From positions 96,786,170-96,850,169 of the forward strand of contig NC_134834.1 in the NCBI RefSeq assembly GCF_004210375.1: 64,000 nt of DNA, read 5' to 3'. Numbering within the stretch: the first letter of the stretch is position 1; each line of letters starts with the position of its first letter. Below the pieces are notes generated by a model. That model had not been told where the DNA came from. It made no database searches and was given only the letters and a program-made list of their open reading frames with translations. Position numbers and translations under genes: made by a program. The DNA is from Tachypleus tridentatus. Its lineage: Eukaryota; Arthropoda; Merostomata; Xiphosura; Limulidae. Positions 11,104-64,000 of this stretch are shown here, piece by piece.

Positions 11104-13527
11104 ATGAAGTGCGTTTTACTCGTAGGTAAGATTAATTATTGTATTTTTAATATCTCATATTTAATAAAATAAGGAAACAAGCAAATTATCTTGAAAAACA
11201 TACAAAAGCCAAAACAGTGAAAAATATACATCACAATATAGATAACAATATGTAACAATATATAGCTATCTTTTTCAAATATTACAACAATTTTCATAGA
11301 TCAAGTACTGTTCTGTGACTTACAAAATATCTCTACGTTAAAAGTGGAAAGTGTTCTTCATTCGATCTTATTTTATTACAACTACTTATTATACATTCTC
11401 GTTTGCAGCTTCCATGCTAATGGCAGTGATCTTTTCCTTACCACGGGTGAGTCAGCGAAACTTCTTCAGACACTCTCAAAAATTGAACTTAATCGGTCGA
11501 TCGACTTAACTTTGTTGACTGAGAGCAATAACTCAAATTCAATATATATATATATATATATATGTGTATATGTATATTAGATGCCAAGACCGTTTCCTGT
11601 TTGAAAAAAGTGTACAAAATAACCGGTTTTAATTATTTTATTTTTATTTTTCCTGGTTATACTTTACATAATCCATGCTGTACTCACGGATATCGAAGCC
11701 CAGTTTTGAACGTCTTCAGACCTACTCCTGAGCTTCTGGTGGCAAATTTTTATTTTTAAATTTGGCAGGTTTTTAGTTGTTTGAAGAAAGTGGTCACAGA
11801 TATGTACACCTTCCAGCTTTACCCCACGGGGTTCTTCAGGAACATAAGTTCACCTTCTTGCCGCTCGCGTGCCCCATAATGAAATAGCACTAAGTTTACG
11901 GTTCTATTCCCTCTACAGTAGATAACCCGATGTGGCTTTGTTATAAAATACAAAATCAGGAGTTTTATTCCCTTCTGTGGACACAGTAGATAACCCGATG
12001 TGACTTTGTTATAAGTGCGTTTCTCGTCATCACATTCACACATACAATCCGCTCGCTGAATGGGTTATTAACACCAGTGAAGATGTCGATAGAAATGAAA
12101 AGATGGTTTTTTCTGATAACTGTTTCTGGAGACTTCGAGAAATGAAGAATAAAGTTCCGTTGTAGATTTTAGGTCTTCTACGGTGTTTTTCCTCAAGAGG
12201 TAGCAAACGGTATTTCATAAAACTAATATGTAAGTGTTTTAGTCACTTGCACGTGCCCTCCACATGGACAGCGGTAAGTTTTCGGATTGCCAACAGTGAA
12301 ATCAGCGGTTAGATGCTATCAGTACACACAGCAGGTAGGCTGCTATGGCTTTACTATAATACTATAAAAACTCATACATATATACGCTTATTACCAGATG
12401 ATGCATTTATGTGTATTGATGTTAACCCGATTTAAACAATGTCAGTTATTCCACATAATTAATGGAGTAAATGGGTGATTGCTTTCTAAATCAAAGTCAA
12501 GAACAAACAAACTAAGAAATAGGCTCGCATGAGAATCTTATACGTCGATAACGTGTAGTGCATGATGAAATCATTATTTTATTACGTATATTTGCTTATT
12601 AGTATTGTACGATGTGACCAGTTAAACGCATTAGTAAATGTTAAGTTTATCGTCACCTTGTCAGTCGACGAGTGCAGTTTTTAGGAAACAAAGTTCTAAA
12701 AAAGCTTCAAACACATTCAGGTTTCTATTACTTTTATTTAAGAAATATGTTTATTTAAAGTTAACACATCAAACGTAATTTGGTGCCAGATACGTGCCCT
12801 AGCTTGCAATTTAGATACTATAGAAAGTTTAAATTTTGTTTCGGTTTTCATATGAAGATTTGAAAAATTGATTTGTTTGTGTTTTTCATCCTGTTTATAG
12901 ATATACCTTTGCCTTATTGGAAAGTAGCCCATATTTATTTAATACGAAACTACATATAGATAAAGAGTACTGTAATTCTATTCCAGAAATGAATGAGAAC
13001 ATACGATTTTCACTAAACAAATTCACGTAAAGTTTTTAAACGACTGCATTAATAGTGTTGTTAACACTGGAAACTGAAGACCTTTTTTCTCCATCTGGCA
13101 GGCAAAACGAGCTGCTTTTGAACTGCCAGACGGCGCGCAGCTCATTGTGGGCAGTATAAAAACAGGTTTCTACTGTGATGGGCTTGGACATGGCTATTAT
13201 GCTGATACGACTAACAATTGCCAGATATTCCACGTATGTGTTCCCCAGGTGTTGGATAATGGAGAGCAAATTGTTAATCAGTACAGCTTTCTCTGTGGTA
13301 ACCAGACCGTTTTTAACCAACTGACTCTCACTTGTGCCTTCCAAGAAGAAGCTATACCTTGTGCAAACGCTCCTGACTTTTACTTCGTCAATGACAACAT
13401 AGGAATTGAGGACGCACTTTTCTTGACTGATGATGATGTACAGAGAGCAAATCAACTCATTGGTGGATATGGTTCTCGTGTACAGAAAAATAAAACTTGG
13501 AAAACATATAAGATAATGATCAATTGA
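11104..13527 (+). CDS. Gene A: secreted CBM14/peritrophin-A chitin-binding protein
   Basis: Three coding exons are inferred: 11104-11125 (phase 1 end, GTA G|GTAAGA), 11409-11446 (TTTGCAG acceptor, CGG|GTGAGT donor) and 13102-13527 (CTGGCAG acceptor). Together they encode about 161 residues. The first two exons give only the signal peptide MKCVLLVASMLMAVIFSLPR; the last begins AKRAAFELPDGAQ, with a possible basic processing site at AKR. One chitin-binding domain follows, with six cysteines spaced 14-5-18-12-8 and the usual aromatic residues (GYYAD, FHVC, YSFLC). An acidic tail contains FLTDDDVQRANQLIGGYGS. The product should be secreted and bind chitin; its tissue is unknown. Oddity: an A run at 13486-13490 is one base shorter than in all other copies, which replaces the usual QKK end with 11 extra residues. 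Confidence 0.85.
11868..12025 (+). mobile_element. SINE type C remnant in intron of gene A
   Basis: It contains the type C landmarks (GTTTACGG..., CAGTAGATAACCCGATGTGGCTTTGTTATAA). Part of the unit is duplicated here compared with the single copy at 51770-51895. Confidence 0.65.
12258..12375 (+). mobile_element. SINE type C remnant in intron of gene A
   Basis: Second, more diverged type C copy (CATGGACAGCGGTAAGTTTTCGG... GCTATGGCTTTACTATAA). It is present in every gene copy, so the insertion predates the array. Confidence 0.55.
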
Positions 13528-13656
13528 CCAGTCTATGAATATTGTTTTCAGTATGCAACAAACAATTTCCTTTTTCATGTATAGCTTACAGAGTGGTTTA
13601 ATGCAGGCATAGGTGATTCTGTGTTTTCTTTCTTAATTCAGTATTATTTCTACAGG

Positions 13657-13737
13657 AATAAAGCTAATAACCTTGAGAACCAATTTATAATTTTTAACAA
13701 CAATATTTTTTTAGCATCGTATAGTCTGTTCAATAAA
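13657..13737 (+). terminator. Polyadenylation signals of gene A
   Basis: AATAAA at 13657-13662 and again at 13732-13737, 130 and 205 bases after the stop. Both are conserved downstream of the other gene copies. Confidence 0.5.
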
Positions 13738-13916
13738 CGATATTCCATACAAATGGTTACAGTCTCTTATTATGCTCAACCATTTCAAATTTGTTTGTAA
13801 GCATTATCACTAATTTGTTTGTGAATTTTCCAGTGTTACTCCTCTAAAATAACCACGATGTTATTGGATAAAATAATGGTTATAACACAACTTTTGATAA
13901 GGTTAATTGACCTTAT

Positions 13917-14127
13917 TAGCCGTCCCTAATTTAGCAGTGTAAGACTAGAGGGACCACCCACCTCCAACTCTTTCGCTACTCTTTGACCAACGAATAATGG
14001 GATTGAACGTCACGTTATAACTCTCCCACGGCTGAAAAGGGGAACATATTTGGTGCGATGGGAATGCGAACCCACGAACCCAGATTACGATTCGCCCGCC
14101 TCTACCCATCTAGCCATGCAGGGCCTC
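13917..14127 (-). mobile_element. tRNA-derived SINE, type A, with internal loss
   Basis: It retains CGTCCCTAATTTAGCAGTG and GCCATGCAGGGCC ends. It lacks about 20 bases (GAAGGCAGCT... region near 13953) that the same insertion keeps at 53795. Confidence 0.85.
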
Positions 14128-14839
14128 AAAGAAATAGTAAATCCATGAACGAAATCTGTGTTGGATATTTCTATTACTTGTATCCATGTTTCATTATTGA
14201 CTTTTAAAACTGCTGCTTAGATTAAACGAGTTTAGCACTCACGTGTTATATTTGTAATATACTGTAGAAATTACTTATTTATTAGTACAAATTAATTGAT
14301 TGATTCCTTCAAATTAAAACATGTTCTTTCGTAATTTTTATGCAAAGTCTGTAATTATAGGGTTTATTGATCGTTTTACTTTTGTTTCTGGTCTTTCATC
14401 CAGCTTTCTTCAAATCACAGTTCTCAACTTTCTGGTCATGTGATTTGCTAGACCATCTGTTTAACAGCTTTTGTGATAGAGAAATATGTACAGCTGTTAT
14501 TTTACACTTTCGTTCAAACTTTTTCAGTTCCGGATGAAAGAAGACCTTTCTTTTCGTGAATGTTACTGACTTTTATTATTGTTTGAGATCTACATTGATA
14601 TTAACAGCAATTTTTAACAACTACCGATAGATAGATTTTTCTTTAGACTTCGTGAGCCTGAGGGATCGTGGTAAAATTAGGCAAGGACGCAGAATCGTCG
14701 TTTTTTAGCATTAATAAGAAGCATGAAACTGATGTTTTTTGATAAAATTACACTTAATTAAGGTTCAAAGTTAGTGCTCCCTGACATCAAAAGTGATTGC
14801 AAATGTTTATCACATTAAGCTGATCTTTTCACAAAATAG

Positions 14840-16795
14840 ATAGTATCAAAAACTGAAATAAATTCACAAGCAAAGGTTTTTAAATGAACATGTTGATCAC
14901 TGGAAGACATTTATAGAACTCTATCAGTTTTCCCTCTTTGTATTTGTCTTTCAACATGTCATTGGATTGCACATCAATTAATTCTACACTTCAGGTGGCA
15001 GTTTATCAATAGCACAATCAAATGGGTTTTGGAAAATCCTTATTTCTGTTGCGCTTGCATCAAGATCAGGAAAACGCTCCTTCAACTGCAGTTCCAAATC
15101 AGAGAGGATATCTTTCGCAAACCTACGTGGGAATAGAGAACACTTTTCTTGTTTGAACTTTTCACAATATGAAAAGTGTCTGAAACAACTCCTCATCAAC
15201 TGGAGTTCAAATAGATATAGTTTTTGCGGAAATGCTTTAAAATCGGTCTACAGATGAACATGGTTTCGTCTTGTTATCTAAGATTGAATTCATTCAGGTA
15301 CGTGGTGAAGTCAAGAGAAAAAGTTAATTTTCAAAACCATTCAACCGTGAGTAACGGTTGAGAGCATTGATTTTCATTTTAAAAAATTTCAATCTCAGTT
15401 CTAAGCTCAAAAAGTCGAGAAATAACCTTTCCACAACAAAGCCATTGAGCTGAAGTGTGGTACCACAAGTCTTGATATGTTGCTTCTATTTCCGTCAAGA
15501 ATTCATGGAATTGACCATAACAGAGTTCATGAGAACAAATGAAGTTAATTGTTGAACTACATGCTGCACGGCACGTGACAGATACAGATATTTTCCACAC
15601 ACCGCCTGCTGATGAATAATGCAACGATGAATCATAAGCTTGGAACAACCATCTCTTCTTAAAACTTTGTAAATTTATCCAACTAAACCTTTTCCTGCAC
15701 TACTTATATTTTTACCACCATCCGTTGTAACACATTCCAGCTGTTTTCATTCCAGGTTGTACTGAAAATGTCCTCAGTGATTGTTCTGTCTTATAATACC
15801 TGTAAAGTGTAGGACACATCTGTTGACTCGTTAATCGCGATAGAAAACCACTCGAGCTCTTTGACCTTATCTTTCAACTGAGACACAATATTGTTTCCAA
15901 TGCCTTCGATTCTACGTGCAACTGTATTCGTCGAAAGGCTAATATTCTTAAGTAATTCTGCTTTTTCTGGATAATTTCTTCGGCTACTTCAATCATACAT
16001 AATTCAATTCGCTCACCATCTGTAAATGGTTTTTCTCTTGGTTAACATGTGTGCCACTTGGAAACTTGCTCTTGTTGCAACTTCATTCTCGGGTTTCTTC
16101 CTGTTAAATACAAACTGTTGTAACAACAAGATACATTTAAAGTCTTCGAATTTATGAGAATGTAGCATTCCCGTGAACTGAGAATAGTTTGATGACTGCT
16201 TACTTTTATAATGTATACGAATGTTGTATTCTTTTAGCACTGGAATAATCTCGTTGCATATTAAGCACAACGCTTTGTTACGTCATTCAATAACAAAGTC
16301 ATACCTTCTCTGCTGTTCCTAAAAAACACGACATTCAAAGTAAACTTTTCTCTTCTTTCCTTGTCCTGACATAATAACTAGGTATAACTATTAATTCGAA
16401 CATAAAGTAAACAGCAGCATTCATGAACACAATCGGACGTGCAGGGGGTAGGCGTGGGAACATGCTACTTCAGGGCACTGGGATCGATAAGTGAGATTAC
16501 ATAATACTAAGTAATATGACGTTTTCTAGCAAGTAGAAAAGTGGTTTTCACCTCGATTGACTTTGGCTCATTTACGTTGTATTTTTTACTTTTATATCAT
16601 TAAAAATGAAAATAATAATAATATCATTATATCGTTTCATTACTTTAATGAACTGTTGGCGGGCTGTATCAAAACTACACTGGCTTTTCCTCAATTACGT
16701 TTTATTTGTTGTTCTTATGCATTAAAACATTATATTACTATTTTAATAAACTGTTGGTTGGCCGAAGTCTCGGGCTGTAGTTTGGAGACCCTACT
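14840..16795 (-). mobile_element. hAT transposon relic, GTF2IRD2/ZBED-type transposase
   Basis: On the minus strand, from about 16372 down, the frame starts MSGQGKKRKVYFECRVF. It continues with a BED-type finger (CLIC, then IHYKSK) near 16265-16200 and ATRASFQVAHMLTKRKT near 16060. A middle region follows with INFICSHELC and LTEIEATYQDLWYHTSAQWLCCGKV near 15550-15400, and a C-terminal part (FPRRFAKDILSDLELQLKERFPDLDASATEIRIFQNPF) near 15130-15010. This order is that of the GTF2IRD2/ZBED5-like hAT family. Stops and frameshifts split it into at least five pieces, so it is inactive. The high-coordinate end has an hAT-style terminus (reverse complement AGGGTCTCCAAACTACAGCC, about 16770-16793). 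I could not find the matching end on the other side. Confidence 0.85.
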
Positions 16796-17885
16796 CTAAA
16801 ACATAAAATGATTCTTTAAACAATTTAACGAATTTAATTATAAAAGAAAAAATATCCAATTTAAATGATTGAAACGTTGTAAAGACAATCGCTTTTCACT
16901 TGTTGATGCATAAGTAAATCTAAGTGCTTGTGTTTTGAATGTTAAAGAGATATAAATGTACAGATAGTTTGTATAATAGGTTATTATTATTCTTATTTGA
17001 TACGTATTGCCAAACGACATTGAATTAAACTAATTACAAACTTAATAATATTTTCATACCGCAAGGGCGCAAGATAATTAAAATTGAAAGAATACTCCTG
17101 GCAAAATGATTTTCCTCGGGCTCGAAATGCACATATGTAACTTCCTAAAATAATAATAAATAAAGTGTGTCCATTGTTAAATTACTTACAACTTTGTTGG
17201 ATGGTTGATTTGCATTCACAGGGATTGTTATATTGGCTTGTAACTTGAGTAAATCCATATCAGTTTACAGTGGCACCAATAAAACTTCCACATCAAACAC
17301 AAACAAGATAGACCAGCTGGAGCAGAGCTTGATAAAAACTAAACCAAAATGATACGTTTAACAAAATCCTTTACGATTAAAAGTATCTAGAAAAACGAAG
17401 GTTTGTAGTCACATTTTTTCTCTCTCCTCTGTTTTAGTTCTGTCCTGAAGTCGACAATGAGCTTTAAATTTAAGAACAATTAACTTTTAACTTCCAACTT
17501 GATCAAGGAGCACGCTAGCTTTACTTTGTTTCTAAAGTCACATACACGCATAATTTACAGTTTACTTGAACCGTATATACACAGAGAATTGAAGTTTTAA
17601 TTTTCTGAACGTTTGTGTTGATGTTCAATAAACAGTATTTTGAATACTGATAAACGAAACATCAGTGTTCGTATTTCATTTGATTTTTATAAAAATCTAG
17701 AATGTAGCTACAAAATGTCGCCATTGAGGACACCAAGTGAAATGTGTAGTCCTATAGTGCGCTAGAGTTCTCTTGAACATTCTTTCAAATTTATATTAAT
17801 GGCGCTTCAGTAGCATACTGGCGTTCTTCGCACTTACAGTATTAGAAGCCAGTATACGGTACCAATGATGGGTAGAGCACAAATT

Positions 17886-18104: not shown

Positions 18105-18214
18105 AGCACCAGAATCATGTAGTTTATCAACAATGTTTAACCCTATTAACGACATTTCGATTCAACATTTTGTAAAACTGTGACATCATATAAGTGTGGC
18201 AACGTTATTTCTGC

Positions 18215-21178: not shown

Positions 21179-21185
21179 TATAAAG
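21179..21185 (+). promoter_or_regulatory. TATA box of gene B
   Basis: AAGTATAAAGAAAACG corresponds to the TATA of gene A. The first-exon donor downstream is weaker (TTAG|GTAGGC at 21248/21249). Confidence 0.6.
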
Positions 21186-21624: not shown

Positions 21625-22479
21625 ACGAGAAAGAACTACAATAATATATACCTAACATTTCTCTGAATGTGTTTACGTAAACCGAATCGTCGTCACTTTT
21701 CTTTACAGGTTGATTTACAGTACTTTAGTTTAGTAACGATGAAGTGCGTTTTACTCGTAAGTAAGATTAATTATTGTATTTTTTAATATCTTATATTTAA
21801 TAAAATATGTGTGTAAAACATTTTGTTTAAATAATCAAAGTATTCTGCAGTACATGAAAAACACTATATCACAATATTGATAACAATATGTAACAATATA
21901 TAGCTATATTTTCCAAATATTACAACAATTTTCATAGATCAAGTACTGTTCTGTGACTTACAAAATATCTCAACGTTAAAAGTGGAAAGTGTTCTTCATT
22001 CGATCTTATTTTATTACAACTACTTATTATACATTCTCGTTTGCAGCTTCCATGCTAATGGCAGTGATCTTTTCCTTACCACGGGTGAGTCAGCGAAACT
22101 TCTTCAGACACCGTCAAAAATTCAACTTAATCGGTCGATCGACTTAACTTTGTTGACTGAGAGAAATAACTCATATCCAGTATATATATGTATATTAGAT
22201 GCCAAGACCGTTTACTTTTTGAAGACAAGTAAACAAAATAACCGTTTTTAATTATTTTATTTTTTATTTTTCCTGGTTATAATTTACATGATCTACTCTG
22301 TACCCACGGATATCGAAGCCCAGTTTTGAACGTCATAATTCTTCAGACCTACACCTGAGCTACTGGGGGCCATTTTTTTTAAAATTTGACAGGTTTTTAG
22401 TTGTTTCAAGAAAGAGGTCACAGATACGTATACCTTCCAGCTCTACCCACGGGGTTGTTCAGGAACAGTAGTTCACCTT

Positions 22480-22925: not shown

Positions 22926-25126
22926 TATACATATATGCAATGTCAGTTCCACATAATAAATGGGATAAATGGGAGATTGTCTTTTAAGTCAAAGAAATAG
23001 GCTCACATGAGAACCTTGTAGGTCCATCACGTATAGGGCATTATGAAAACATTATTTTATAACGCGAATTTATTGTTACTTTAGAAATGTTAATATTGTA
23101 CGGTGTTACCAGTAAAATACACTATTAACTGTTAAGTTTACCATCTTGTCAATCTCCGAGTGCAGTTTTAACAAACAAAGTTCTGAAAGAGTTTCAAACA
23201 CATTTAGGTTTCTGTTACTTTCATTTAAGAAATATGTTTATTTAAAGTTAACACATAAAACGTAATTCGATGCAAGTTACGTGCCTTAGCTTGCAATTTA
23301 GATACTATAGAAAGTTTAAATTTTGTTTCAGTTTTCATATGACGATTTGAAAAATTGATTTGTTTGTGTTTTTCAACCTGTTTATAGATATACCTTTGCC
23401 TTATTGGAAAGTAGCCCATATTTATTTAATACGAAACTAAGTATAGATAAAGAGTACTGTAATTCTATTCCAGAAATGAATAAGAACATACGATTTTCAC
23501 TAAACAAATTCACGTAAAAGTTTTTATACGAATGCATTACTATTGTTGCTTACACTGGAAACTGAAGTTCACGTTTTCTATATCTTACAGGCAAAACGAG
23601 TTGCTTACGAACTGCCAGACGGCGCGCATCTCGTTGTGGGCGATGTAAAACCAGGTTTGTACAGTGATGGGTTAGAAATGGCTGTTATGTTGATTTGACT
23701 AGCAAATGCCAGATCTTCCACGTATGTGTTCAACAGGTGTTGGATACTGGAGAGCAAATCGTTAATCAGTACAGCTTTCTCTGTGGTAACCAGACCGTTT
23801 TTTAACCAACAGACTCTCAATTGTGTCTTCCAAGAAGAAGCTACACCTTGTGCAAACGCTGCTGACTTTTACTACGACAATGACAACATAGGAATTGACG
23901 ACGCACTTTTCTTGACTGATGATGACGTACAGAGAGCAAATCAACTCATTGGTGGATATGTTTCTCTTGTACAGAAAAAATAAAACTTGGAAAACATATA
24001 AAATAATGATCAATTGACCAGCCTATGAATATTGTTTTTCAGTATGCAACAAATAATTTCCTTTTTCATGTATAGCTTATAGAGTGGTTTAATGTAGGCA
24101 TAAGTGATTCTGTGTTTTCTTTCTTAGTTCAGTATTATATCTACAGGAATAAAGCTAATAAACCTGAGAAGTAATATGTAATTTTTAACAACAGTATTTT
24201 TTTAGCATCGTATAGTCTGTTCAATAAACGGTATTCCATACAAATGGTTAAAGTCTCCTATTATACTCATTCATTTCAAATTAAATTTTGTAAACATTAT
24301 CACTAATTTGTTTGTGAATTTTCCAGTGTTAGGCCTCATGTGTTCTGTATTGACAGTTTACTTTTGTATGTATATGTATCGTATACTTACGTTTGTTATA
24401 TGAAATTGTGCAACTTTGAATTGAAACTTGACATCTCTATATATCCACACTTTCAATTTTTTTTGTTAAACACCTTTTCAAATGTGCAAGTTTACCTGGA
24501 AAAAATTTAACAATATCAACGTCGATAAATATATTTAAAATATTTTCACACCACTAAAAGGTTCTCCATACAACGACTTTTTCTGTTTGTCTTAATATCA
24601 AATAACACCATAAATTATGTTGTTCAAACTAAACTGGTCACAGGATCATAGATCAGCAACTTCAAGTAACGTGTAACCCGTATTAAACAATGATGAAAAA
24701 TATATTGTTAAGATGTAATCACAAAATTCGATACCGATAAAGAGGAATCTCATAAATATCTGAAATAACAAGTATTATAAAGAATAAAACTCAGTGTACA
24801 AGATATATTTATGGAAGTGTACGCACCACGAGGAAAGGAGTCCATTAAGTTCATACATATTGCCAAACGACTTTTGAATTCAATTATTTACAAATTTATT
24901 AATATTTTCAGACTGCAGGTGGCGCTAAATGATTGAAAGTGAATGTAGACTTCTGGCAAAATGATTTTCTTCCGGCTCAAAATGTACATATGTTACTTCC
25001 TAAAATTAATAATAAACAAAGTATGTCCATTGTTAAATTAAGTACAACTTTGTTGTATGGTTAATTGGCATTCACAGGTATTGTTATATTGGCTTAGAAC
25101 ATGAGTGAATCCCTATCTTTCTACAG

Positions 25127-25397: not shown

Positions 25398-25406
25398 ATT
25401 CTACAA

Positions 25407-31884: not shown

Positions 31885-31900
31885 GCAAAACGAGTTGCTT
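31885..31900 (+). pseudogene. 16-base stub of the CBM14 domain exon
   Basis: An acceptor (CATCTAACAG) is followed by GCAAAACGAGTTGCTT, the start of the domain exon. The sequence then switches abruptly to AGTTGTTTGAAGAAA, which belongs near the beginning of the large intron (11773 in gene A). The 430 bases before the stub match the end of that intron, so unit 3 holds the intron end twice, as expected from unequal crossing-over. Confidence 0.75.
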
Positions 31901-32011
31901 AGTTGTTTGAAGAAACAGATCACAGATATGTCCACCTTCCGTCTCTACCCCACGGGTTTCTGGGAAACATAACTTCACCTTCTTGCCGCTTGCGTGCTCC
32001 ATAATGGAATA

Positions 32012-33168: not shown

Positions 33169-33561
33169 GCAAAACGAGCTGCTTTTAAACTGCCAGACGG
33201 CGCGCAGCTCATTGTGGGCAATATAAACACAGATTTCTCGTGTGATGGGCTTGGATATGGCTATTATGCTGATGTGACTAACAATTGCCAGATATTCCAC
33301 GTATGTGTTCCCTCGGTGTTGGATAATGGAGACCAAACCATTTATCAGTACAGCTTTCTCTGTGGTAACCAGACCGTTTTTAACCAACTGACTCTCACTT
33401 GTGCCTTCCAGGAAGAAGCTACACCTTGTTCAAACGCTGCTGACTTTTACTACGACAATAACAGCATAGGAATTGACGACGCACCTTTCTTGACTGATGA
33501 TGACGTACAGAGAGCAAATCAACTCATTGGTGGATATGGTTCTCGTGTACAGAAAAAATAA
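33169..33561 (+). pseudogene. Gene C: CBM14 domain exon without its 5' exons
   Basis: The domain exon is fully open for 130 residues after a good acceptor (CATCTAACAG) and ends in the usual QKK. All six cysteines are present (FSCDG, NNCQIFHVC, FLCGN, LTCAF, TPCSN) with the standard spacing. No copy of the two signal-peptide exons or of the promoter exists between 25572 and the exon. The leader and SINE join straight to the intron end at about 31444, so roughly 4.5 kb is missing compared with unit 1. It can only be expressed if spliced to exons of another unit. The intact frame suggests the loss is recent, or that the exon is still used that way. Confidence 0.7.
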
Positions 33562-42145: not shown

Positions 42146-45100
42146 ATGGAGTTCTTGGTAGTAATGTGTAAGTAACTTAATTTTTTGTAATTCGATTCAA
42201 GGCATATTTTTCGCGATGTTTATTTATATTAATTTCAGAAAGCTAGTGTCAGTTATTTGCCACTTGAATAAGTCATTCCTGTTTCATTCTTTTAAACAGA
42301 CATACAGTCATATGTATTGTTTTAAATGTTACCACCTCATGTGCTTTGCTAACTTGTCCGGAGAAATGCCTTTTACAGTTTTAACCGTGGTAGATATTAG
42401 TGACAGTTTTCCTACATGCTTGTATTTAAAATATTTTTTTTTTACATTTTCAAATAATATTGATCGGTTGTTTGTTTAAAATTAATCATATAGCTACACA
42501 ATAGCCTATCTGTACTCTACCCACCACAGGTATCAAAACACATTTTCTAGCTACGTGAGTCCGCAAACATACCACTGGGTGGCTTTTAGGTAATAATGGA
42601 AGCTCTTGAATATTTATTGTTAGAAACGAATTATTGACACTCAGTGGCACAGCGTACTTTTGTGGACTTACAACATAAAAAGTACAGATTTTGATATCCG
42701 CGGCCAGCAGAGCACAAATATTCTGTTGTGTAGTTTTGTACTTCGTTATAAACAAAATCCAATGATTAAAAATGTATATCCCAAATATGCTCATTTAAAG
42801 TTCGTTTATATAAAAATAATTATTTATCATTTAAACACTTTTGGTAAAACGTAATCTTAACATTTTGTTAATTCACGAGGAATTATTAATTAATTTTATA
42901 TCAAAATGTTATCTTTAATTAGATTTTAAATGAAGTATTTCAAATGTTCACAGCGGTTTAATAAATTGATGTTCCGAAATTATTATGTTTTTTCCTTTAG
43001 TGGCTGTCTCTTGTCTTCCATTTATTTCGACATTTTCAATTGTAAGTACACTTTTCCTAATTTATTTTAACTGTTTTAAGTAAGATATTTAGAAATAATT
43101 TTATTCTCAAATCAACTCTCGATCAGTTAATTAATTATCTTTTTAAATTAAGAAAACTAAAAAACAACCTTACAAAAAGAGACATTAATTCCATTAAAAA
43201 CCTAAAACAAGATAAAAACATAAAAATTCTAAAATCAGATAAAGGTAACGCTATAGTCATAATGAACACGAATGAATACATCCTAAAAATGAATAACATC
43301 CTATCAGACACGAACAAATTTAAACCAATACACACAAATCCAACAAAGACACACGAGACGCAACTGAACAAATTACTACTACAAATGAAAAAAGCCAACA
43401 CAATTTCACAAACACTTTATTCCTACCTACGTAAAACCGACTCACGCACACCGCAAATATACGGCATCCCCAAACCTCATAAACCAGGTTGTCCATTACG
43501 ACCAATAATGTCCACATATGAATCGTTTAATTACAATCTTGGTAAATACATAGCATGGGCATTCTCCAAATATGTAACATCAGCCAGCTCATTCATCAAA
43601 GACTCTTTTAATTTCAAGTCTAATCTAAATCAACTTAATCATAAAGCCTTAATGGCCAGTTTCAATGTTATATCCCTCTTTACAGAAGTTCTAACCACTG
43701 AAGCCTGCAAGATAGCCTTAGAACTCTATATCCGAGACCCTAACCCAACTATAGAAATTCCCAGTAACCAGTTAGCAACCCTCATAGAATTCACCACGAT
43801 AAAGACAAACTTCATATTCAACAACCAAAACTATATACAAACAAATGGCCTAAGCATGGGCAACTCAGTATCATCAGTTCTAGCCAATATTTTTATGACA
43901 CAAGTTGAAACACAAGCAATTAACACAGCATTACATCCACCACTAAACTGGTACAGATATGTAGATGACACGGTTGCGGGATCCAGATCTACAGAACACA
44001 TACTTAATTTTTTCAATCACATTAACTTTATACATCCCAACATTTACTTCACATGTTAACAGGAAGAAAGCAATCAAATATCATTTCTTAACCTCAAAAT
44101 TACCAGAACCGACACACAATTCAAAACAGAAATCCACCGAAAAATCACCCATACTGGACTATACATTCCTTGGGACTCAGCACATGAAACAAAACAAAAA
44201 CTCAACATACTAAGAAACCAAATAAACACAGCCATAAAACTATGATCGCCAGATAAAATTAACGATGAATTAGACAAAATAAAACAATACTTCATCAACA
44301 TCAATAAGTTTCCTCCACAAACGGTAGAAAACATTATACGCACACACCTAGACAGAAAGCAAAATCAACCAACTAAAGTAAATATATCTCACGAATCAAA
44401 AAATCACGAAACCATATACTGCTGTATACCATATATTCCTGACATCAGCAAACAAATAACCAGCATTTGGCAAAAATTAGTAACAAAATATGACATTCCA
44501 GTTAATACCAAATTTATTCAAAAACCAGGCACAAAACTGACAAAACAGGTAAAAACTACACTGACAAACACCACACCAACATTATTTACAAAATACAATG
44601 TGATAACTGCCACGACTTCTATATTGGAGAAACAAGTAGAAAATGGAAACCAGATTCAAAGAACATAAAAAGTCACCTTTACACGTTTTCGAACACTGCA
44701 AGTCAAATAAACACAACATAACCACAGAAAATACCCAAATACTAAATAAAGAAACAAACATAAACAAACGCAAAATTAAAGAAGCCTTACTTATACAACA
44801 ACTTAAACCCAAAATAAACCAATATAAAGGAACGCCTTTATACCTATATTAATATAATAAAATAAATAAATTATATATTCAAACATCTAATACCGCCCTC
44901 TACATTCCGACACTCAGTTACACAACCCCTTTCAAACATGTGGTCAGCTTCCGGTCAGTTACATCTTTCTTTGTGAACCTGACGATGACCGAAGAAGGTC
45001 GAAACGTTGTTCGCTCTTCTATGTAAAATATTTTCTCAACCCAAACGAGCCGTTTTTGCATATAAATTTCAGAACTCTGTTTGTTTGTTTTTGAATTTTC

Positions 45101-45816
45101 CGCAAAGATACACGCGGGACATCTGCGCTAGCCGTCCCTAATTTAGCAGTGTAATACAAGAGGGAAGGCAGCTAGTCATCACCACCCACTGCCAACTACT
45201 GGGCTACTCTTTTACCAACAAATAGTGGGATTGAGCGTCACATTATAACGCCCCCACGGCCGAAAAGGCGAGCATGTTTAGTGCCATGGGGATGCAAACC
45301 TGCGGCCCTTAGATTACAAGTCGCACGCCTTAACCCACCCGACCATGCTGGGCCTAAGAAAAGTTATGTCAGAAAATTTTTATAAGTTTCAAAAATCAAT
45401 GCATTTTCACTGCATTTTAAAGTAAAAATTATTCGAAAATGTCAGTGTTTTCTTTGTTCTATAGACTTTTCTATTTTTCTTAGAATAATCTTAATTTTGA
45501 AGAAGAAATGCCATCAGTAAATGAAGTACAAATGGTCTTTAGTTGTGAAGGTAAGGAAGAAGGCTACTATGCAGATAATCAGAATGATTGTAACTCGTTT
45601 TATAAATGTAGTGACAGTGCTAACACAGATGTGGAGAAAAATAATATGTATCAACTTACCTTTTTCTGTGAAGCCCAAAAAGTCTTCAGTGATGCCCTAG
45701 GGTTCTGTGTTCCTCCAGAAGAAAATGTCTGTGAGAATGATCCATTAGATGAAAGTCAGAATGCAATCTTGGATTATGATATTGAAAACCTACACTGGAG
45801 AAAGATGTCCTTGTAG
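42146..45816 (+). CDS. Gene F: divergent CBM14 chitin-binding protein
   Basis: Three coding exons are inferred: 42146-42167 (22 bases, ATG T|GTAAGT, phase 1), 43001-43041 (41 bases, TTTCCTTTAG acceptor, CAATT|GTAAGT donor) and 45484-45816 (TTTTTCTTAG acceptor). Joined they encode 131 residues. The signal peptide MEFLVVMLAVSCLPFISTFS is followed by a short acidic linker. One CBM14 domain has cysteines spaced 14-5-19-12-7 (FSCEG, GYYAD, NDCNSFYKC, FFCEA, GFCVP, NVCEN), and the C terminus is acidic. Exon sizes and phases match genes A-E, although the protein is far diverged, so this is an old paralog. A Penelope-like element and a SINE sit in the second intron (43042-45483). Splice sites are clean and the frame is intact, so the gene looks functional. 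The exon model is my inference and lacks transcript support. Confidence 0.8.
42470..42583 (-). mobile_element. tRNA-related SINE, type B, in intron 1 of gene F
   Basis: ATATAGCTACACAATAGCC... CCACCACAGGTATCAAAAC... ACCACTGGGTGGC. Confidence 0.7.
42635..42760 (+). mobile_element. tRNA-related SINE, type B, opposite orientation
   Basis: CACTCAGTGGCACAGCG... TGTGGACTTACAAC... TTTGATATCCGCGGCCAGCAGAGCAC... GTTTTGTACTTCGTTATAAAC. With the preceding copy it forms a head-to-head inverted pair inside the intron. Confidence 0.65.
43090..45075 (+). mobile_element. Penelope-like retroelement, 5'-truncated
   Basis: The reverse transcriptase shows the Penelope pattern: KSDKGNAIVIM near 43220, PQIYGIPKPHKPG near 43450, LRPIMSTYES near 43500, GLSMGNSVSSVLANIFM near 43850 and the catalytic YVDDT near 43960. 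A GIY-YIG-type endonuclease remnant (FYIGETSR near 44620, then a basic region with ALLIQQLKPKINQ) follows to about 44850. The 3' tail carries a hammerhead-like core at 44979-45005. The element lies in the sense direction inside intron 2 of gene F. It is broken, with a few interruptions in the coding region, and cannot be autonomous. Penelope assignment is confident from motif order. Confidence 0.88.
44973..45014 (+). ncRNA. Hammerhead ribozyme-like motif of the Penelope element
   Basis: CTGACGA (44979-44985), stem II GACC/GGTC with a GAAGAA loop (44987-45000) and GAA plus ACGT (45001-45007) fit the hammerhead core. GTGAAC (44973-44978) can pair with GTTCGC (45009-45014) as stem I, leaving T45008 at the cleavage position. 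Stem III is only the palindrome ACGT, so activity would probably need a dimer. Penelope elements are known to carry such minimal hammerheads. Activity is not shown here. Confidence 0.6.
45079..45354 (-). mobile_element. tRNA-derived SINE, type A, in intron 2 of gene F
   Basis: Reverse copy from TTTGTTTGTTTTTGAATTTTCCGC to CGACCATGCTGGGCC, abutting the Penelope tail. Confidence 0.9.
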
Positions 45817-45983: not shown

Positions 45984-46483
45984 NNNNNNNNNNNNNNNNN
46001 NNNNNNNNNNNNNNNNNNNNNNNNNNNNNNNNNNNNNNNNNNNNNNNNNNNNNNNNNNNNNNNNNNNNNNNNNNNNNNNNNNNNNNNNNNNNNNNNNNNN
46101 NNNNNNNNNNNNNNNNNNNNNNNNNNNNNNNNNNNNNNNNNNNNNNNNNNNNNNNNNNNNNNNNNNNNNNNNNNNNNNNNNNNNNNNNNNNNNNNNNNNN
46201 NNNNNNNNNNNNNNNNNNNNNNNNNNNNNNNNNNNNNNNNNNNNNNNNNNNNNNNNNNNNNNNNNNNNNNNNNNNNNNNNNNNNNNNNNNNNNNNNNNNN
46301 NNNNNNNNNNNNNNNNNNNNNNNNNNNNNNNNNNNNNNNNNNNNNNNNNNNNNNNNNNNNNNNNNNNNNNNNNNNNNNNNNNNNNNNNNNNNNNNNNNNN
46401 NNNNNNNNNNNNNNNNNNNNNNNNNNNNNNNNNNNNNNNNNNNNNNNNNNNNNNNNNNNNNNNNNNNNNNNNNNNNNNNNNNN
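45984..46483. other. Assembly gap, exactly 500 N
   Basis: A run of 500 N. The round length marks a scaffolding join of unknown true size, not a measured gap. The left contig ends just after gene F in a TA/AATAAA-rich stretch; the right contig starts inside a LINE. Confidence 0.98.
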
Positions 46484-50607: not shown

Positions 50608-51769
50608 GAACGAATTTTATCCAGCTGAATTAGTGATACCCCACTAGCGTAAAACGAGAGAAATTGGGTAAGTAAATAGCTGGCTGGCCACCTGGTGTCA
50701 GAAATTTTCGTTTGAAACAAAAAACCCTCTTTGTTACAGGATTTATAATATTTACAGATATTATGTTTGTTGTGATATTATACTTGTGGAGTTATTTACA
50801 ATTTATATATGCGTATGTGTTTCTGTCTTTTTATCTAATAATTAGCTGTTAGAATTTGAAGCTTCTGTGAACATAATTATGTTGTGTATTTGGTTTGTTT
50901 TCACCAGAAAGAACTACAATAATATATACCTAACATTCCTCTGAATGTGTTTACTTAATCCAAATCGTCGTCACTTTTCTTTACAGGTTGATTTACAGTA
51001 CATTACTTTAGTAACGATGAAGTGCGTTTTACTCGTAGGTAAGATTAATTATTGTATTTTTAATATCTCTTATTCAATAAAATAAGGAAACAATCAAATT
51101 ATCTTGCAAAACATACAAAAACCAAAACAGTGAAAAATATACATCACAATATAGATAACAATATGTAACAATATATAGCTATCTTTTTCAAATATTACAA
51201 CAATTTTCATAGATCAAGTACTGTTCTGTGACTTACAAAATATCTCAACGTTAAAAGTGGAAAGTGTTCTTCATTCGATCTTATTTTATTACAACTACTT
51301 ATTATACATTCTCGTTTGCAGCTTCCATGCTAATGGCAGTGATCTTTTCCTTACCACGGGTGAGTCAGCGAAACTTCTTCAGACACTCTCAAAAACTGAA
51401 CTTAATCGGTCGATCGACTTAACTTTGTTGACTAAGAGCAATAACTCATATTCAATATATATATATGTATATTAGATGCTAAGACCGTTTCCTGTTTGAA
51501 AAAAGTGTACAAAATAACCGTTTTTAATTATTTTATTTTTTATTTTTCCTGGTTATACTTTACATAATCCATGCTGTACTCACGGATATCGAAGCCCAGT
51601 TTTGAACGTCTTCAGACCTACTCCTGAGCTTCTGGTGGCAAATTTTTATTTTTAAATTTGGCAGGTTTTTAGTTGTTTGAAGAAAGTGGTCACAGATATG
51701 TACACCTTCCAGCTTTACCCCACGGGGTTCTTCAGGAACATAAGTTCACCTTCTTGCCGCATGCGTGCC

Positions 51770-52215: not shown

Positions 52216-53758
52216 AACACATACATAAATACGCTTGTTAACCAAATGATGCATTTATGTGTATTGAGGTTAACCCGATTTAAACAATGTTAGTTATTCC
52301 TCATAATTAATGGATTAAATGGGAGATTGCTTTCTAAATCAAAGTCAAGAAGAAACAAACTAAGAAATAGGCTCGCATGAGAATCTTATACGTCCATAAC
52401 GTGTAGTGCATGATGAAAGCATTATTTTATTACGTATATTTGCTTGTTAGTATTGTACGATGTGACCAGTTAAACACATTACTAACTGTTAAGTTTATCG
52501 TCACCTTGTCAGTCGACGAGTGTAGTTTTTAAGAAACAAAGTTCTACAAAAGCTTCAAACACATTCAGGTTTCTATTACTTTTATTTAAGAAATATGTTT
52601 ATTTAAAGTTAACACATAAAACGTAATTCGGTGCCAGATACGTGCCTTAGCTTGGAATTTATATACTATAGAAAGTTTAAATTTTGTTTCGGTTTTCATA
52701 TGACGATTTGAAAAATTGATTTGTTTGTGTTTTTCAACCTGTTTATAGATATACCTTTGCCTTATTGGAAAGTAGCCCATATTTATTTAATACGAAACTA
52801 CATATAGATAAAGAGTACTGTAATTCTATTCCAGAAATGAATGAGAACATACGATTTTCACTAAACAAATTCACGTAAAAGTTTTTAAACGACTGCATTA
52901 ATAGTGTTGTTAAGACTGGAAACTGAAGACCTTTTTTTCTCCATCTGGCAGGCAAAACGATCTGCTTTTGAACTGCCAGACGGCGCGCAGCTCATTGTGG
53001 GCAGTATAAAAACAGGTTTCTACTGTGATGGGCTTGGACATGGCTATTATGCTGATACGACTAACAATTGCCAGATATTCCACGTATGTGTTCCCCAGGT
53101 GTTGGATAATGGAGAGCAAATTGTTAATCAGTACAGCTTTCTCTGTGGTAACCAGACCGTTTTTTAACCAACTGACTCTCACTTGTGCCTTCCAAGAAGA
53201 AGCTATACCTTGTGCAAACGCTCCTGACTTTTACTTCGTCAATGACAACATAGGAATTGAGGACGCACTTTTCTTGACTGATGATGATATACAGAGAGCA
53301 AATCAACTCATTGGTGGATATGGTTCTCGTGTACAGAAAAAATAAAACTTGGAAAACATATAAGATAATGATCAATTGACCAGTCTATGAATATTGTTTT
53401 TCAGTGTGCAACAAATAATTTCCTTTTTCATGTATAGCTTATAGAGTGGTTTAATGCAGGCATAGGTGATTCTGTGTTTTCTTTCTTAATTCAGTATTAT
53501 TTCTACAGGAATAAAGCTAATAACCTTGAGAACCAATTTATAATTTTTAACAACAATATTTTTATAGTCTGTTCAATAAACGATATTCCATACAAATGGT
53601 TACAGTCTCTTATTATGCTCAACCATTTCAAATTTGTTTGTAAGCATTATCACTAATTTGTTTGTGAATTTTCCAGTGTTACTCCTCTAAAATAACCACG
53701 ATGTTATTGGATAAAATAATGGTTATAACACAACTTTTGATAAGGTTAATTGACCTTA

Positions 53759-57754: not shown

Positions 57755-57970
57755 CCCTAATTTATTAGAGTAATACTAGAGGGAAGGCAGCTAGTCATCA
57801 CCACCCACCGCCAACTCTTGGGCTACTCTTTTACCAACGAATAGGGTTTACCGTTACATTATAACGCCCCACAGCTGAAACGGCGAGTATGTTTGGTGCG
57901 ACGAGGATGCGAACCCGCGACCCTTTAGAGTAGGAGTCGCAAGCTTTAACACGCTTGGCCATGCCGGGCC
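57755..57970 (-). mobile_element. tRNA-derived SINE, type A (copy of 17886-18104)
   Basis: Same insertion in the post-gap block. Confidence 0.88.
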
Positions 57971-58081
57971 AGCACCAGAATCATGTAGTTTATCAACAAT
58001 GTTTAACCCTATTAACGACATTTCGATTCAACATTTTGTAAAACTGTGACATCATATAAGTGTGACAACGTTATTTCTGCG

Positions 58082-58334
58082 TTTGTTTTTTAATTTTACC
58101 CAAAGCCACTCGAAATCCAACTGCTTTAACTATCCCTCATTTAGCTGTAATAAACTATACGTAAGACAGAAAGTGATCACATTTCACCACCAGTTCTTCG
58201 GCTATTCATTACTAAATGACTGATGTGTTTAATCATTACATTATAACGTACTCATGGCAGAAAGGGCGAGTATGTTCGATGAAGAAGATTGGAATCCGGT
58301 AACCGCAAATTGCGAGTCGATTACTCTAACCATC
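58082..58334 (-). mobile_element. Old SINE type A (copy of 18215-18468)
   Basis: Same degenerate insertion in the post-gap block. Confidence 0.6.
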
Positions 58335-61045
58335 AAATAACATAAAAATAACACTTACTAGGAGAAACTCTCTGTGTTCCTTCAACCAAAGTCGCTGATA
58401 TCTTGTATGACTGGGTTCTGTTCATACAACGGAATACGTTGTTTATTACTTTGAATGTATTTGGCTTGATGCTCATACATGTGGAAATGAAAATAAACTT
58501 CATAGTTTATCTATAAATTACTGTGAATAAATTACATTTAGATCAACCTTTCCTCTGTAAAATGTTATAGAAACTGATAGGATCGCTTTGCGAAACAGTT
58601 TGTATCAGTGTAATGCACCTGGCGGCCTGCGACGTCTTTTTTTTTCAGTCCACACAAATGTTTGACCACGCATAAAAAAATAATTGATGTAAACCGAATT
58701 TCAGAAATAACAAAAGAAATAAAATTATTAATGTCCTAAAACCTATCAGTTCCTGAAATTTTTTGTTATGAAGGCTATTCACAAGTTCATACTCGAAGGT
58801 AAATTCCTTTGTGAGAATCAAAATTGAGATCATTCATGAAATCAATTCATGGCGTATTAATAGAACAGTTATTGATAAAAATCAATTGGTTAACAATTTC
58901 TAATATGTATTAAAGCCAGTGCGTTTCGATAACATTACGTTCCAACAATGGTTTTTGTGTTTTGTTGTTTGGCAAATGTATATACTGACATTATTGTTAA
59001 TCTATCTACAGAAAGTACAAAATTAAATGCATAGACAAGACATCTGTAAAAATATTTGTTGATTTCGTAATTATGAGTCTCCTTTGATTAAACAGGTTTG
59101 TTTTGCATTAAATGTTACTGATATTAACAGAAAATAGCTACATTCATAATCGATTAAAGTTTAAATTGAATCCATATTTTGTTTCATTAATAAAATTATG
59201 CCCTTGGTTTTAGGCCAGGTAATAAACACAACATTCTTACTTTGGGCATATTTTACAAACGTTCACTACAGTTATAAGGTTTTACGATGACTTACACCTA
59301 CATCACTAAATACATAATGAGCAGACAGTAACTGAACTATTTCTCAGGATAAATATGTTTGGGCTTTTATGACTCCTCCCATTTATTAAAGTGATAAAGT
59401 GTGACGTGACACACATCCGCTTTTCCAAAGGTTAGATATATATATTTATATGAAATGATTTCACAGTTACAAATTAGAACACAATTTAAGACTAAAAAGA
59501 CAGTTTGGATTTTTTATCCCCTCTGCCTCAATGCTGATTGGTTGAGTTAAACGAGCGATCACGAGAACGTTACGCGTATACTCATAGGTTCAGTCAGTTT
59601 AGAGTTTGTAAAAAGTACAGAGATGTTATTTCAAATTTATAAATTTATTATAGTTTTTTTTGTGTTGTATCAGTTTCTCTCACACGCGCACAGAATCTGT
59701 AGTACTACTAAATTTTTAAAAAATATCTTATTTCAGTGTCCACTTTTCTATTGTCCGATCCAAATCTTCAGAATAAATATTACTTTAGCTCATGGGTTTC
59801 AAGGGGTTGGACCACGATGCTTTAGTTCACTCAAGACTGTTTCAACATAAAGTGTAGCATTGTAATACTAATAACTTGCATTTAATTGTGATTTTAATAT
59901 ACTACTTCTGAAAGCTGATGCTGAAACACCTGTTAAACATGATTCAACTTGAAGGGTAATGTGTGAAAGTTTGTTTGCTTGTTATCAAGCAGAAGGCTAC
60001 AAAATAGACTAAGAGTGATCTGAACATGTAGGTTTTCCAGCATCTACACTTACCCATGAACTACATAGGGTATCTATGATAGATAATGAGGTGAAACATC
60101 AGTGAAATTGAACAAAAAAATTAAGAAATATAGATCTCTACCTAAAATACACTGATTATTTTCTAAATATGCTATTGGAAATATCGAATGTAAATAACAA
60201 ATGTTTTAATCACGTGTTTCAAAAGAAAATGTTTTCCATAATAAGCCTATGTATTTATGTATTCATTTTTCTACCACGATACAAAATTTTCGGTTGATAT
60301 TCAGACTAGGTTTTGCATTCTCTTCTAGAACTTTCGTATCAAGTTTCATATATTAAACTCGTGTCTACCTAAGGTAAAAGTACTTTAATTCTCTGTCTTT
60401 AATTCAGATTGAACTTTTCAACAAACACGTTTCACTAGTCAGTGTACCAGTTGTTCCTTCATCGTATCAACAGATAAGAGATATTTCCATTTCATACTTC
60501 GGTGTTTATTCTGCGAAATGTAGAATACAGGTGCTCGTGTGTTTCATGTATAGAGATACTACTGTTCAAATTGAATACAATTCCAACGAGAAAGAATTTT
60601 GCATAAATTCCTATATCACTATATTTATTGATATAGATTTTCATTTCTAAAAAAATAAAAATTAAACTAAACAGAAAGATTCAGAAGGCTATTCACAATA
60701 AAACAATTTATAAATATTTATAACATAATAATTGTTAATTGTATGGAAGTTGTACTTCCAGTATTAATCTTATGACATATTCCACTTGCATCATCTAAAT
60801 AATGAGGTTTATGTGTTGTGTTACCGCCAATGCTCCACACTTTAAATGCAAAAATGCGCGAAAACAGGTATTGTCAAATTCCACTGTTCGATTAGACAAG
60901 AGCAGACCAAGAGTTAAAAGGAATGGGTTACCTCTTGTTTGCCAATTCAAGCTCTCAACGAAAGATGATTCGTTATCTTGTGACCTGATTCAAGTGGCTC
61001 ATGGCAACAAGGAAACCGGTTGATCTAGTGGTTTCTTCTCGAAAG

Positions 61046-61052
61046 TATAAAG
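61046..61052 (+). promoter_or_regulatory. TATA box of gene E
   Basis: AAGTATAAAGAAAACG, as in gene B; first-exon donor at 61115/61116. Confidence 0.6.
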
Positions 61053-61363
61053 AAAACGAACTTTATCCAGCTGAATTAGTGGATACCTCAAAATAAAAAA
61101 AAGTAGAGAAATTAGGTAGGCAAATATCTGGCTAGCCACCTGGCGTCAGAGATTTTCATTTGAAGCAACGAACTTCCTCAGTTACAGGATTCATAATATG
61201 TACGGATATTATGTTCGATATTATACCTGTGGAATTAACAGATTCTTTAAAATTTATATAAACGTATGTGTTTGTGTCTTAATATCTAATATTTAGCTGT
61301 TAGAATTTCAAGCTTCTGTGAATATAATTATACTATGTATTTGGTTTGTTTTCACCAGAAAGA

Positions 61364-61491
61364 TTGTTGTTGTTTTGAATTAAGCACAAAGCTACACGAT
61401 GGGCTATCCGTGCTCTGCCCACCACGGGTATCGAAACCAGGATTTTAGCGTTATAAGTCCTCAGACATACCGCTGAGACACTGGGGAACTC
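61364..61491 (-). mobile_element. tRNA-related SINE, type B (copy of 21499-21624)
   Basis: Same insertion in the 5' intron of gene E. Confidence 0.85.
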
Positions 61492-62351
61492 ACGAGAAAG
61501 AACTACAATAATATATACCTAACATTTCTCTGAATGTGTTTACGTAAACCGAATCGTCGTCACTTTTCTTTGCAGGTTGATTTACAGTACTTTAGTTTAG
61601 TAACGATGAAGTGCGTTTTACTCGTAAGTAAGATTAATTATTGTATTTTTAATATCTTATATTTAATAAAATATGTGTAAAACATTTTGTTTAAATAATC
61701 AAAGTATTCTGCAGTACATGAAAAACACTATATCACAATATTGATAACAATATGTAACAATATATAGCTATATTTTCCAAATATTACAACAATTTTCATA
61801 GATCAAGTACTGTTCTGTGACTTACAAAATATCTCAACGTTAAAAGTGGAAAGTGTTCTTCATTCGATCTTATTTTATTACAACTACTTATTATACATTC
61901 TCGTTTGCAGCTTCCATGCTAATGGCAGTGATCTTTTCCTTACCACGGGTGAGTCAGCGAAACTTCTTCAGACACCCTCAAAAATTCAACTTAATCGGTC
62001 GATCGACTTAACTTTGTTGACTGAGAGAAATAACTCATATCCAGTATATATATGTATATTAGATGCCAAGACCGTTTACTTTTTGAAGACAAGTAAACAA
62101 AATAACCGTTTTTAATTATTTTATTTTTTATTTTTCCTGGTTATAATTTACATGATCTACTCTGTACCCACGGATATCTAAGCCCAGTTTTGAACGTCAT
62201 AATTCTTCAGACCTACACCTGAGCTACTGGGGGCCATTTTTTTTTAAATTTATCAGGTTTTTAGTTGTTTCAAGAAAGAGGTCACAGATACGTATACCTT
62301 CCAGCTCTACCCCACGGGGTTGTTCAGGAACAGTAGTTCACCTTCTTGCTT

Positions 62352-62470
62352 CTCGCGTGTCCCCTACTGGAGCATTGCTAAGTCTGCGGATTTACAACTC
62401 TAAAATCAGGAATTCTATTCCCCTCGACGGACACAGTAGATAGCCCGATGTGGCTTTGTTATACGAAAAC
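62352..62470 (+). mobile_element. SINE type C in intron of gene E
   Basis: Counterpart of 22480-22600. Confidence 0.7.
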
Positions 62471-62692
62471 ACACACACATACAGTGTACTCGCGGAATGG
62501 GTTATTAACACCAGTGAAGATGTCGATAGAAATAAAGAAGATTGTTTTTTTCTGATTACTGTTTCTGGAGGCTTCGAGAAATGACGAATAAGATTCGATT
62601 GTAAATTTACAGGTCTTCTACCGTGATCTTCCGTAACAGGGAGCAAACTGCATTTCATGTAGAAGTGTTCTAGTCACTTCGACGTGTCCTCT

Positions 62693-62790
62693 GGCGGGAC
62701 AGCGTTAACTTTACGGATTTACAACGTTGAAATCAGGGGCTAGATTCCTTCAGTTGACATAGCAGGTAAGGTGCTATGGCTTTGAAAAAA
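62693..62790 (+). mobile_element. SINE type C in intron of gene E
   Basis: Counterpart of 22828-22925. Just after it, a 10-base unit (ATAAATGGG-A) at 62820-62850 has one more copy than in gene B. Confidence 0.55.
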
Positions 62791-64000
62791 TATACATATA
62801 TGCAATGTCAGTTCCACATAATAAATGGGATAAATGGGATAAATGGGAGATTGTCTTTTAAGTCAAAGAAATAGGCTCACATGAGAACCTTGTAGGTCCA
62901 TCACGTATAGGGCATTATGAAAACATTATTTTATAACGCGAATTTATTGTTACTTTAGAAATGTTAATATTGTACGGTGTTACCAGTAAAATACACTATT
63001 AACTGTTAAGTTTACCATCTTGTCAATCTCCGAGTGCAGTTTTTAACAAACAAAGTTCTGAAAGAGTTTCAAACACATTTAGGTTTCTGTTACTTTCATT
63101 TAAGAAATATGTTTATTTAAAGTTAACACATAAAACGTAATTCGATGCAAGTTACGTGCCTTAGCTTGCAATTTAGATACTATAGAAAGTTTAAATTTTG
63201 TTTCAGTTTTCATATGACGATTTGAAAAATTGATTTGTTTGTGTTTTTCAACCTGTTTATAGATATACCTTTGCCCTATTGGAAAGTAGCCCATATTTAT
63301 TTAATACGAAACTAAGTATAGATAAAGAGTACTGTAATTCTATTCCAGAAATGAATAAGAACATACGATTTTCACTAAACAAATTCACGTAAAAGTTTTT
63401 ATACGAATGCATTACTTTTTTTTGCTTACACTGGAAACTGAAGTTTACGTTTTCTATATCTTACAGGCAAAACGAGTTGCTTACGAACTGCCAGACGGCG
63501 CGCATCTCGTTGTGGGCGATGTAAAACCAGGTTTGTACAGTGATGGGTTAGAAATGGCTGTTATGTTGATTTGACTAGCAAATGCCAGATCTTCCACGTA
63601 TGTGTTCAACAGGTGTTGGATACTGGAGAGCAAATCGTTAATCAGTACAGCTTTCTCTGTGGTAACCAGACCGTTTTTTAACCAACAGACTCTCAATTGT
63701 GTCTTCCAAGAAGAAGCTACACCTTGTGCAAACGCTGCTGACTTTTACTACGGCAATAACAGCATAGGAATTGAGGACGCACCTTTCTTGACTGATGATG
63801 ACGTACAGAGAGCAAATCAACTCATTGGTGGATATGTTTCTCTTGTACAGAAAAAATAAAACTTGGAAAACATATAAAATAATGATCAATTGACCAGCCT
63901 ATGAATATTGTTTTTCAGTATGCAACAAATAATTTCCTTTTTCATGTATAGATTATAGAGTGGTTTAATGTAGGCATAAGTGATTCTGTGTTTTCTTTCT

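Follow-up and report, generated by a model that had tools for sequence, protein, structure and literature searches.

A predicted two-micro-exon leader in a cluster of single-domain CBM14 genes of the horseshoe crab Tachypleus tridentatus

Results

A stretch of 64,000 nucleotides (nt) of the genome of the horseshoe crab Tachypleus tridentatus (2.17 Gb in total), corresponding to C10:96,786,170-96,850,169 and hereafter called the window, carries several copies of a gene for a protein with one chitin-binding domain of the CBM14 family, whose predicted leader peptide is split between two micro-exons. Two exons of a coagulogen gene of this genome match PDB entry 1AOC, a T. tridentatus protein, at 90/90 positions, in line with a horseshoe-crab origin; a spider origin, considered in view of genome size and GC, was dropped, and a search for a spidroin N domain found none, a result with little weight of its own. 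In gene A, exon 1 (22 nt, 11104..11125; this and all other exons given below lie on the + strand) ends in phase 1 and would encode the beginning of the predicted signal peptide. Exon 2 (38 nt, 11409..11446) ends in phase 0 and would supply the rest of this peptide together with the Arg of an R-x-K-R motif, and exon 3 (13102..13527) contains xKR, the CBM14 domain, and the tail in an intact frame. Exon 2 of A is identical at 38/38 positions across the eight array copies aligned, and an A run near the end of exon 3 is one base shorter than in most copies, which extends the tail by 11 residues. Gene F has an exon 1 of 22 nt ending in phase 1 (42146..42167), an exon 2 of 41 nt ending in phase 0 (43001..43041), and an exon 3 (45484..45816) with a diverged CBM14 domain that shares 28% identity with the first row of alignment A1 and lacks R-x-K-R.

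An earlier note on this DNA had proposed such a layout for five genes (A, B, D, E, and F). All of its exon coordinates were exact base for base, with GT donors and AG acceptors, and the sizes agreed as well: 22 nt for exon 1 in the five genes, and 38 nt (A, B, D, and E) or 41 nt (F) for exon 2. The junctions 11125/11409 and 11446/13102 in A, and 42167/43001 and 43041/45484 in F, were likewise present. The shared design thus consists of a 22-nt start exon ending in phase 1, a second exon of 35, 38, or 41 nt ending in phase 0, and a single exon for the CBM14 domain.

The DNA upstream of CBM14 exons was scanned for pairs of leader exons with the length left free (7-75 nt for exon 1 and 15-89 nt for exon 2), provided that the splice sites scored acceptably and that the joined exons kept an open frame and encoded a hydrophobic peptide. 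For gene A, the 22+38 pair ranked first of five pairs. For gene F, 22+41 ranked first of two; the evidence from F by itself is weak, since the two pairs have one exon 2 in common and each begin with a 22-nt exon. A genome search with exon 3 of gene A returned 115 matches, from which 22 family loci outside the C10 arrays were scanned (19 from among the best-ranked matches and three chosen on C11/C12). The combination of 22 nt with 35, 38, or 41 nt was the best pair in 17 of these 22 loci, on C1, C8, C9, C10, C11, and C19, and this recurrence supports the idea, also put forward in the note, of a single ancestral gene. The 17 loci comprise 14 among L017-L038, L060 and L062, and L025, which gave a 7+38 pair with only 1.5 kb of upstream DNA and the design when re-read with a longer stretch as L064. 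At L017, 22+41 shared the first place with a 25+41 pair. Another locus, L063, in which the start of exon 3 was not located, is outside the 22. No pairs were obtained for the C10 array loci scanned with 1.5 kb of upstream DNA; for A and similar loci, this is because their second intron exceeds 1.5 kb.

Control sequences did not yield the design. It was the best pair in 0/122 and 0/54 stretches taken with overlap from the reverse strand of the window and in 0/400 and 0/300 Markov-resampled sequences, that is, in 0/876 controls when all were pooled (176 reverse-strand and 700 Markov). Eight unrelated CBM14 exons (L001-L008) also gave no pair of 22 nt with 35, 38, or 41 nt (L002 gave 30+67), although these are a weak control, with acceptors in only five of the eight.

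The leader exons also bear marks of coding sequence. Over 28 pairs from eight representative genes, among which L026, L027, and L031 are near-duplicates, the identity of exons 1 and 2 was 0.59, 0.71, and 0.50 at the first, second, and third codon positions, respectively, and that of the adjoining intron bases was 0.34. In 18/19 gene models, exon 3 contains no Met before its first Cys and so requires a start further upstream; F alone has such a Met, at residue 9. Among 21 leaders compared, the one closest to the joined leader of F belongs to L025/L064, a member of the family located on the chromosome that also carries F (z 5.9, score 43, 0/2000 shuffles). At the DNA level, comparisons of exon 2 of F with nine other second exons were mostly not significant (p 0.22 for L025; the lowest value was p 0.012, for L017).

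The last codon of exon 2 encodes Arg and exon 3 opens with x-Lys-Arg, so that the two sides of the second intron together spell R-x-K-R in 18/19 models, all except F, and the same arrangement was found in L060, L062, and L064. The KR was part of the exon-3 search pattern for most loci, but the Arg that ends exon 2 was not. R-x-K-R is the usual motif for cleavage by furin-type convertases, and the 18 models carry the R-x-K/R-R of a furin-type precursor between the leader and the mature part. The predicted order is thus a signal peptide, a few residues, R-x-K-R, and the mature chitin-binding protein. The motif exists only after exons 2 and 3 have been joined, and the second intron therefore cuts a likely convertase site.

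The assignment to CBM14 was confirmed by domain searches. CBM_14 (PF01607) matched 17/17 aligned family exons at E 0.001, and it was the only domain to do so: the R&R domain (chitin_bind_4) was absent. The 17-row exon-3 alignment has six invariant Cys columns, with one CBM14 stretch per protein in the rows shown in full. In the window, PF01607 was found in all four sequences submitted (A, C, F, and the open first part of D), with 36.3 bits for A and 38.2 bits for F against a cut-off of 22.1. A structural model of the protein of X47, an array copy at C10:87.627 Mb (X48 lies at 87.654 Mb), had a fair predicted local distance difference test (pLDDT) score of 76. Its best Foldseek match, a weak one, was the CBM14 lectin Avr4 (probability 0.84, E 0.18), and there was no match at E 0.001. 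Sequence searches against PDB returned nothing or one chance-looking match (adiponectin, E 0.0026), and scans of NCBIfam and Rfam gave nothing useful.

The other copies in the window are in a less favorable state. Copy B has an exon 1 whose last base is changed from G to A with the donor retained (21739..21760), an exon 2 identical to that of A (22047..22084), and an exon 3 (23591..23983) that is a pseudogene, with Cys25 lost, one 1-nt deletion, and one 1-nt insertion. Copy D has its leader exons at 51017..51038 and 51322..51359, and an exon 3 (52952..53345) with a 1-nt insertion in a T run (six T, against five in A) that breaks the frame inside the CBM14 domain. The leader exons of copy E lie at 61606..61627 and 61911..61948, and its exon 3 (63467..63859) is a pseudogene with the lesions of B. 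Copy C, which the note had left out, has an exon 3 with an intact frame (33169..33561), and no leader exons were found for it in the window beyond those of A, B, D, and E (the next best candidates had 10/28 and 24/50 mismatches). Upstream of C, a truncated duplicate of the start of exon 3 (31885..31902, + strand) reads AKRVA and then a stop, with a good acceptor before it. An array of five genes, as originally described, is not supported, given that B and E are pseudogenes, the frame of D is shifted, and C is leaderless in the window; A and F alone appear complete and are probably the working genes. Intron 2 of F encloses a reverse-transcriptase frame (RVT_1, 43061-44059) that looks Penelope-like.

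The pairs A/B and D/E sit on one duplicated block of at least 17.7 kb whose copies are 40 kb apart. Positions 6410-24124 match 46484-64000 in four pieces with 94.7-98.4% identity, and the block runs off the end of the window. A run of exactly 500 N (45984..46483), probably a scaffold gap, directly precedes the second copy, position 46484 aligning to 6410. A second run of 500 N, also likely a scaffold gap, was seen at L040 (4189-4688). Both block copies contain reverse-transcriptase-like frames of an element resembling a long interspersed nuclear element (6126-7529 and 47223-47603, both on the - strand), and in the first block copy, the one scanned for it, RVT_1 was above the cut-off only in 6126-6962.

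The same genes recur in a second array, in inverted orientation, at C10:87.59-87.74 Mb, about 9 Mb from the array at C10:96.78-96.97 Mb. Near C10:87,595 kb, it contains a copy of F with 99.3% identity over 5.3 kb, which differs from F by one substitution in exon 1 and one missing base in the tract before exon 2, exons 2 and 3 being unchanged. Elsewhere, two opposed arrays of similar 73-residue CBM14 exons, often spaced by about 2.1 kb, were observed at C7:43.27-43.29 Mb (- strand) and C7:46.70-46.73 Mb (+ strand).

Sixteen array copies were tabulated, 11 at C10:96.78-96.97 Mb (including X42, X43, and X44 at 96.865, 96.888, and 96.969 Mb) and five in the inverted array at 87.61-87.65 Mb; at least four further decayed matches among the 115 are not in this table. 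The exon-3 frame is intact in seven copies (A, C, L012, X44, L014, X47, and X48) and broken in nine. No leader exons were found upstream of L012 (4.4 kb) or L014 (5.7 kb), and in 12/16 copies altogether either the frame is broken or leader exons are lacking within reach. A full set of three exons with an unbroken frame was observed in four copies of the arrays, namely A, X44, X47, and X48. The replacement of Cys25 and the 1-nt deletion at codon 28 in B and E, which also carry a 1-nt insertion, are common to L018 and L028. The T run affected in D (53160-53166) has six T in 5/15 copies measured, which belong to diverged lineages, and the pattern was not found in the sixteenth copy, L028. This recurrence may reflect recurrent slippage, gene conversion, or read error.

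The ratio of nonsynonymous to synonymous substitution rates (dN/dS) of exon 3 was 0.49-1.98 in the C10 cluster (pairs with dS above 0) and 0.10-0.69 outside it (nine unsaturated pairs). The identity between A and B was patchy, varying between 75 and 100 matching positions per 100 bases when counted in ungapped windows, and this suggests gene conversion within the C10 cluster.

Discussion

The exon design and its recurrence across the family can be read from the genomic sequence itself. As a whole, we consider it highly probable that the C10 cluster belongs to a family of small proteins with a single CBM14 domain, probably secreted, that goes back to an ancestral gene of three coding exons with a split leader and an R-x-K-R site, a recent and unstable expansion of the cluster being part of this explanation. 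Several points weigh against it. The splice matrices were approximations, the same ones being applied to genes and controls, and the scan itself required the leader to be hydrophobic. Five of the 22 loci do not have the exact design: L036 has 31+38 nt and has lost the KR, and with it R-x-K-R; the C5 loci L033, L034, and L038 gave no pair in 1.5 kb and only other lengths with laxer thresholds (for L033, no pair was found in 4.4 kb either); and L061, on C12, gave other lengths only. These 22 loci were drawn from 115 matches and are mostly the best-ranked ones. Near-duplicates among the positive loci (L019/L020; L021/L023/L024; L022, L026, L027, L030, and L031) reduce the 17 to about ten distinct sequence groups, and the position of A/D and B/E on a duplicated block means that A, B, D, and E are not four independent cases. 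Gene F lacks R-x-K-R, its donors are weak (scores 4.9 and 5.7), and its leader shows no similarity to that of A (p 0.44). Finally, the dN/dS ranges inside and outside the C10 cluster overlap, but constraint may be weak even on those C10 copies that are intact.

If the micro-exons were chance open stretches next to the CBM14 exon, with the real start exon elsewhere, the conservation between A and B would not reveal it: about 140 intron bases before exon 2 are almost as conserved (140/143) as exon 2 itself (38/38), so that conservation within the array alone cannot single out exon 2, and we dropped it as proof of this exon. Identical lengths and phases in 17/22 loci outside the arrays, against 0/876 controls, and a leader identity that differs by codon position make such a coincidence very improbable. 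It is more conceivable, but still unlikely, that B, D, and E are working genes whose frameshifts are consensus errors in homopolymers. The lesion of D, a change from five to six T in a run that has six T in a third of the copies measured, would fit this idea; B and E, however, also have Cys25 replaced and share the deletion at codon 28 with L018 and L028. The leader and domain exons could alternatively act as separable cassettes, the intact leader exons of B and E being spliced past their broken exon 3 to an intact but leaderless exon 3 downstream, as from B to C. The phases would allow it, exon 2 of B ending in phase 0 at 22084 and exon 3 of C starting in phase 0 at 33169, and the array would then yield chimeric transcripts in which each join rebuilds R-x-K-R. 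This seems quite improbable to us, as the acceptors of B exon 3 (9.5) and of the decoy before the stop (9.2) both score higher than that of C (7.5).

A more serious question is raised by the assembly. D/E may be the other haplotype of A/B, scaffolded in tandem, and the inverted array at C10:87.59-87.74 Mb may have the same origin. The second block starts immediately after the last base of the 500-N run, F and its counterpart in the inverted array, near 87.595 Mb, share 99.3% identity over 5.3 kb, and several CBM14 matches pair up with an identical score on one chromosome (e.g., on C3, C9, and C10), which suggests assembly duplicates or recent duplication. On the other hand, the 94.7-98.4% identity of the A/B and D/E blocks is below what would be expected of alleles if heterozygosity is about 0.8%, a value given for a related species (PMC7210998), and the sequence past the gap runs on into more repeat units. 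True recent duplication and uncollapsed haplotypes both fit these data, and we regard the haplotype explanation as a distinct possibility, if a somewhat doubtful one. 

In the ancestral three-coding-exon gene that we favor, a 22-nt start exon and a second exon of 35-41 nt would have encoded a hydrophobic leader ending in Arg, and the last exon would have begun with x-Lys-Arg, followed by the chitin-binding domain and the tail. Splicing would join the three pieces, signal peptidase would take off the leader, and a furin-type convertase would cleave after R-x-K-R. The mature protein, with its N terminus near A-[YF]-E-L-P, would bind chitin in the cuticle or another chitinous matrix. To judge from the domain, the most likely role is that of a secreted chitin-binding protein of such a matrix.

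The family resembles the single-domain CBM14 proteins of arthropods, known as peritrophin-like or CPAP1 and often annotated as U-scoloptoxin(01)-like, in having one six-Cys CBM14 domain and, as predicted here, a leader peptide. Its gene structure recalls that of the insect CPR cuticle genes, which have a tiny first coding exon, an intron within the signal peptide, and a tandem clustered organization, and encode secreted chitin binders (PMC2259329, PMC1626468). Among the Anopheles gambiae CPR genes with introns, 86% were described as having one in the signal-peptide region, with first exons of 3-36 nt (median 12), and these short first exons of cuticle genes were said to hamper annotation (PMC2259329); CPR genes of Drosophila and Tenebrio are likewise described as having their signal peptide interrupted by an intron (PMC1626468). 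The insect genes are described with one such intron, mostly in phase 0 after about four codons, and an R&R domain (PMC2259329, PMC1626468), whereas the horseshoe-crab family has two introns (phase 1 and phase 0), a CBM14 domain, and a second intron that splits R-x-K-R. The schistosome micro-exon genes also encode secreted proteins and have exons of 3-81 nt between long introns (PMC10526429), but here the leader alone is on micro-exons and the domain is on one exon. Within the literature searched, which consisted of titles, the starts of abstracts, and some passages, with few subscription journals, no report of this exon design was found for CBM14 genes. Split signal peptides are already known in arthropods and are usual among the cuticle genes of insects (PMC2259329), and the predicted two-micro-exon leader of horseshoe-crab CBM14 genes, with a conserved putative processing site across the second intron, is a further case.

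These results also call for caution with tandem copy numbers in this assembly, which mix genes, pseudogenes, and possible duplicate haplotypes. It is plausible that annotation pipelines lose the leader exons, and a gene model that covered exon 3 alone would lack the export signal as well as the processing step. The design described here provides a testable gene model for a chitin-binding family whose leader is invisible in the domain exon alone.

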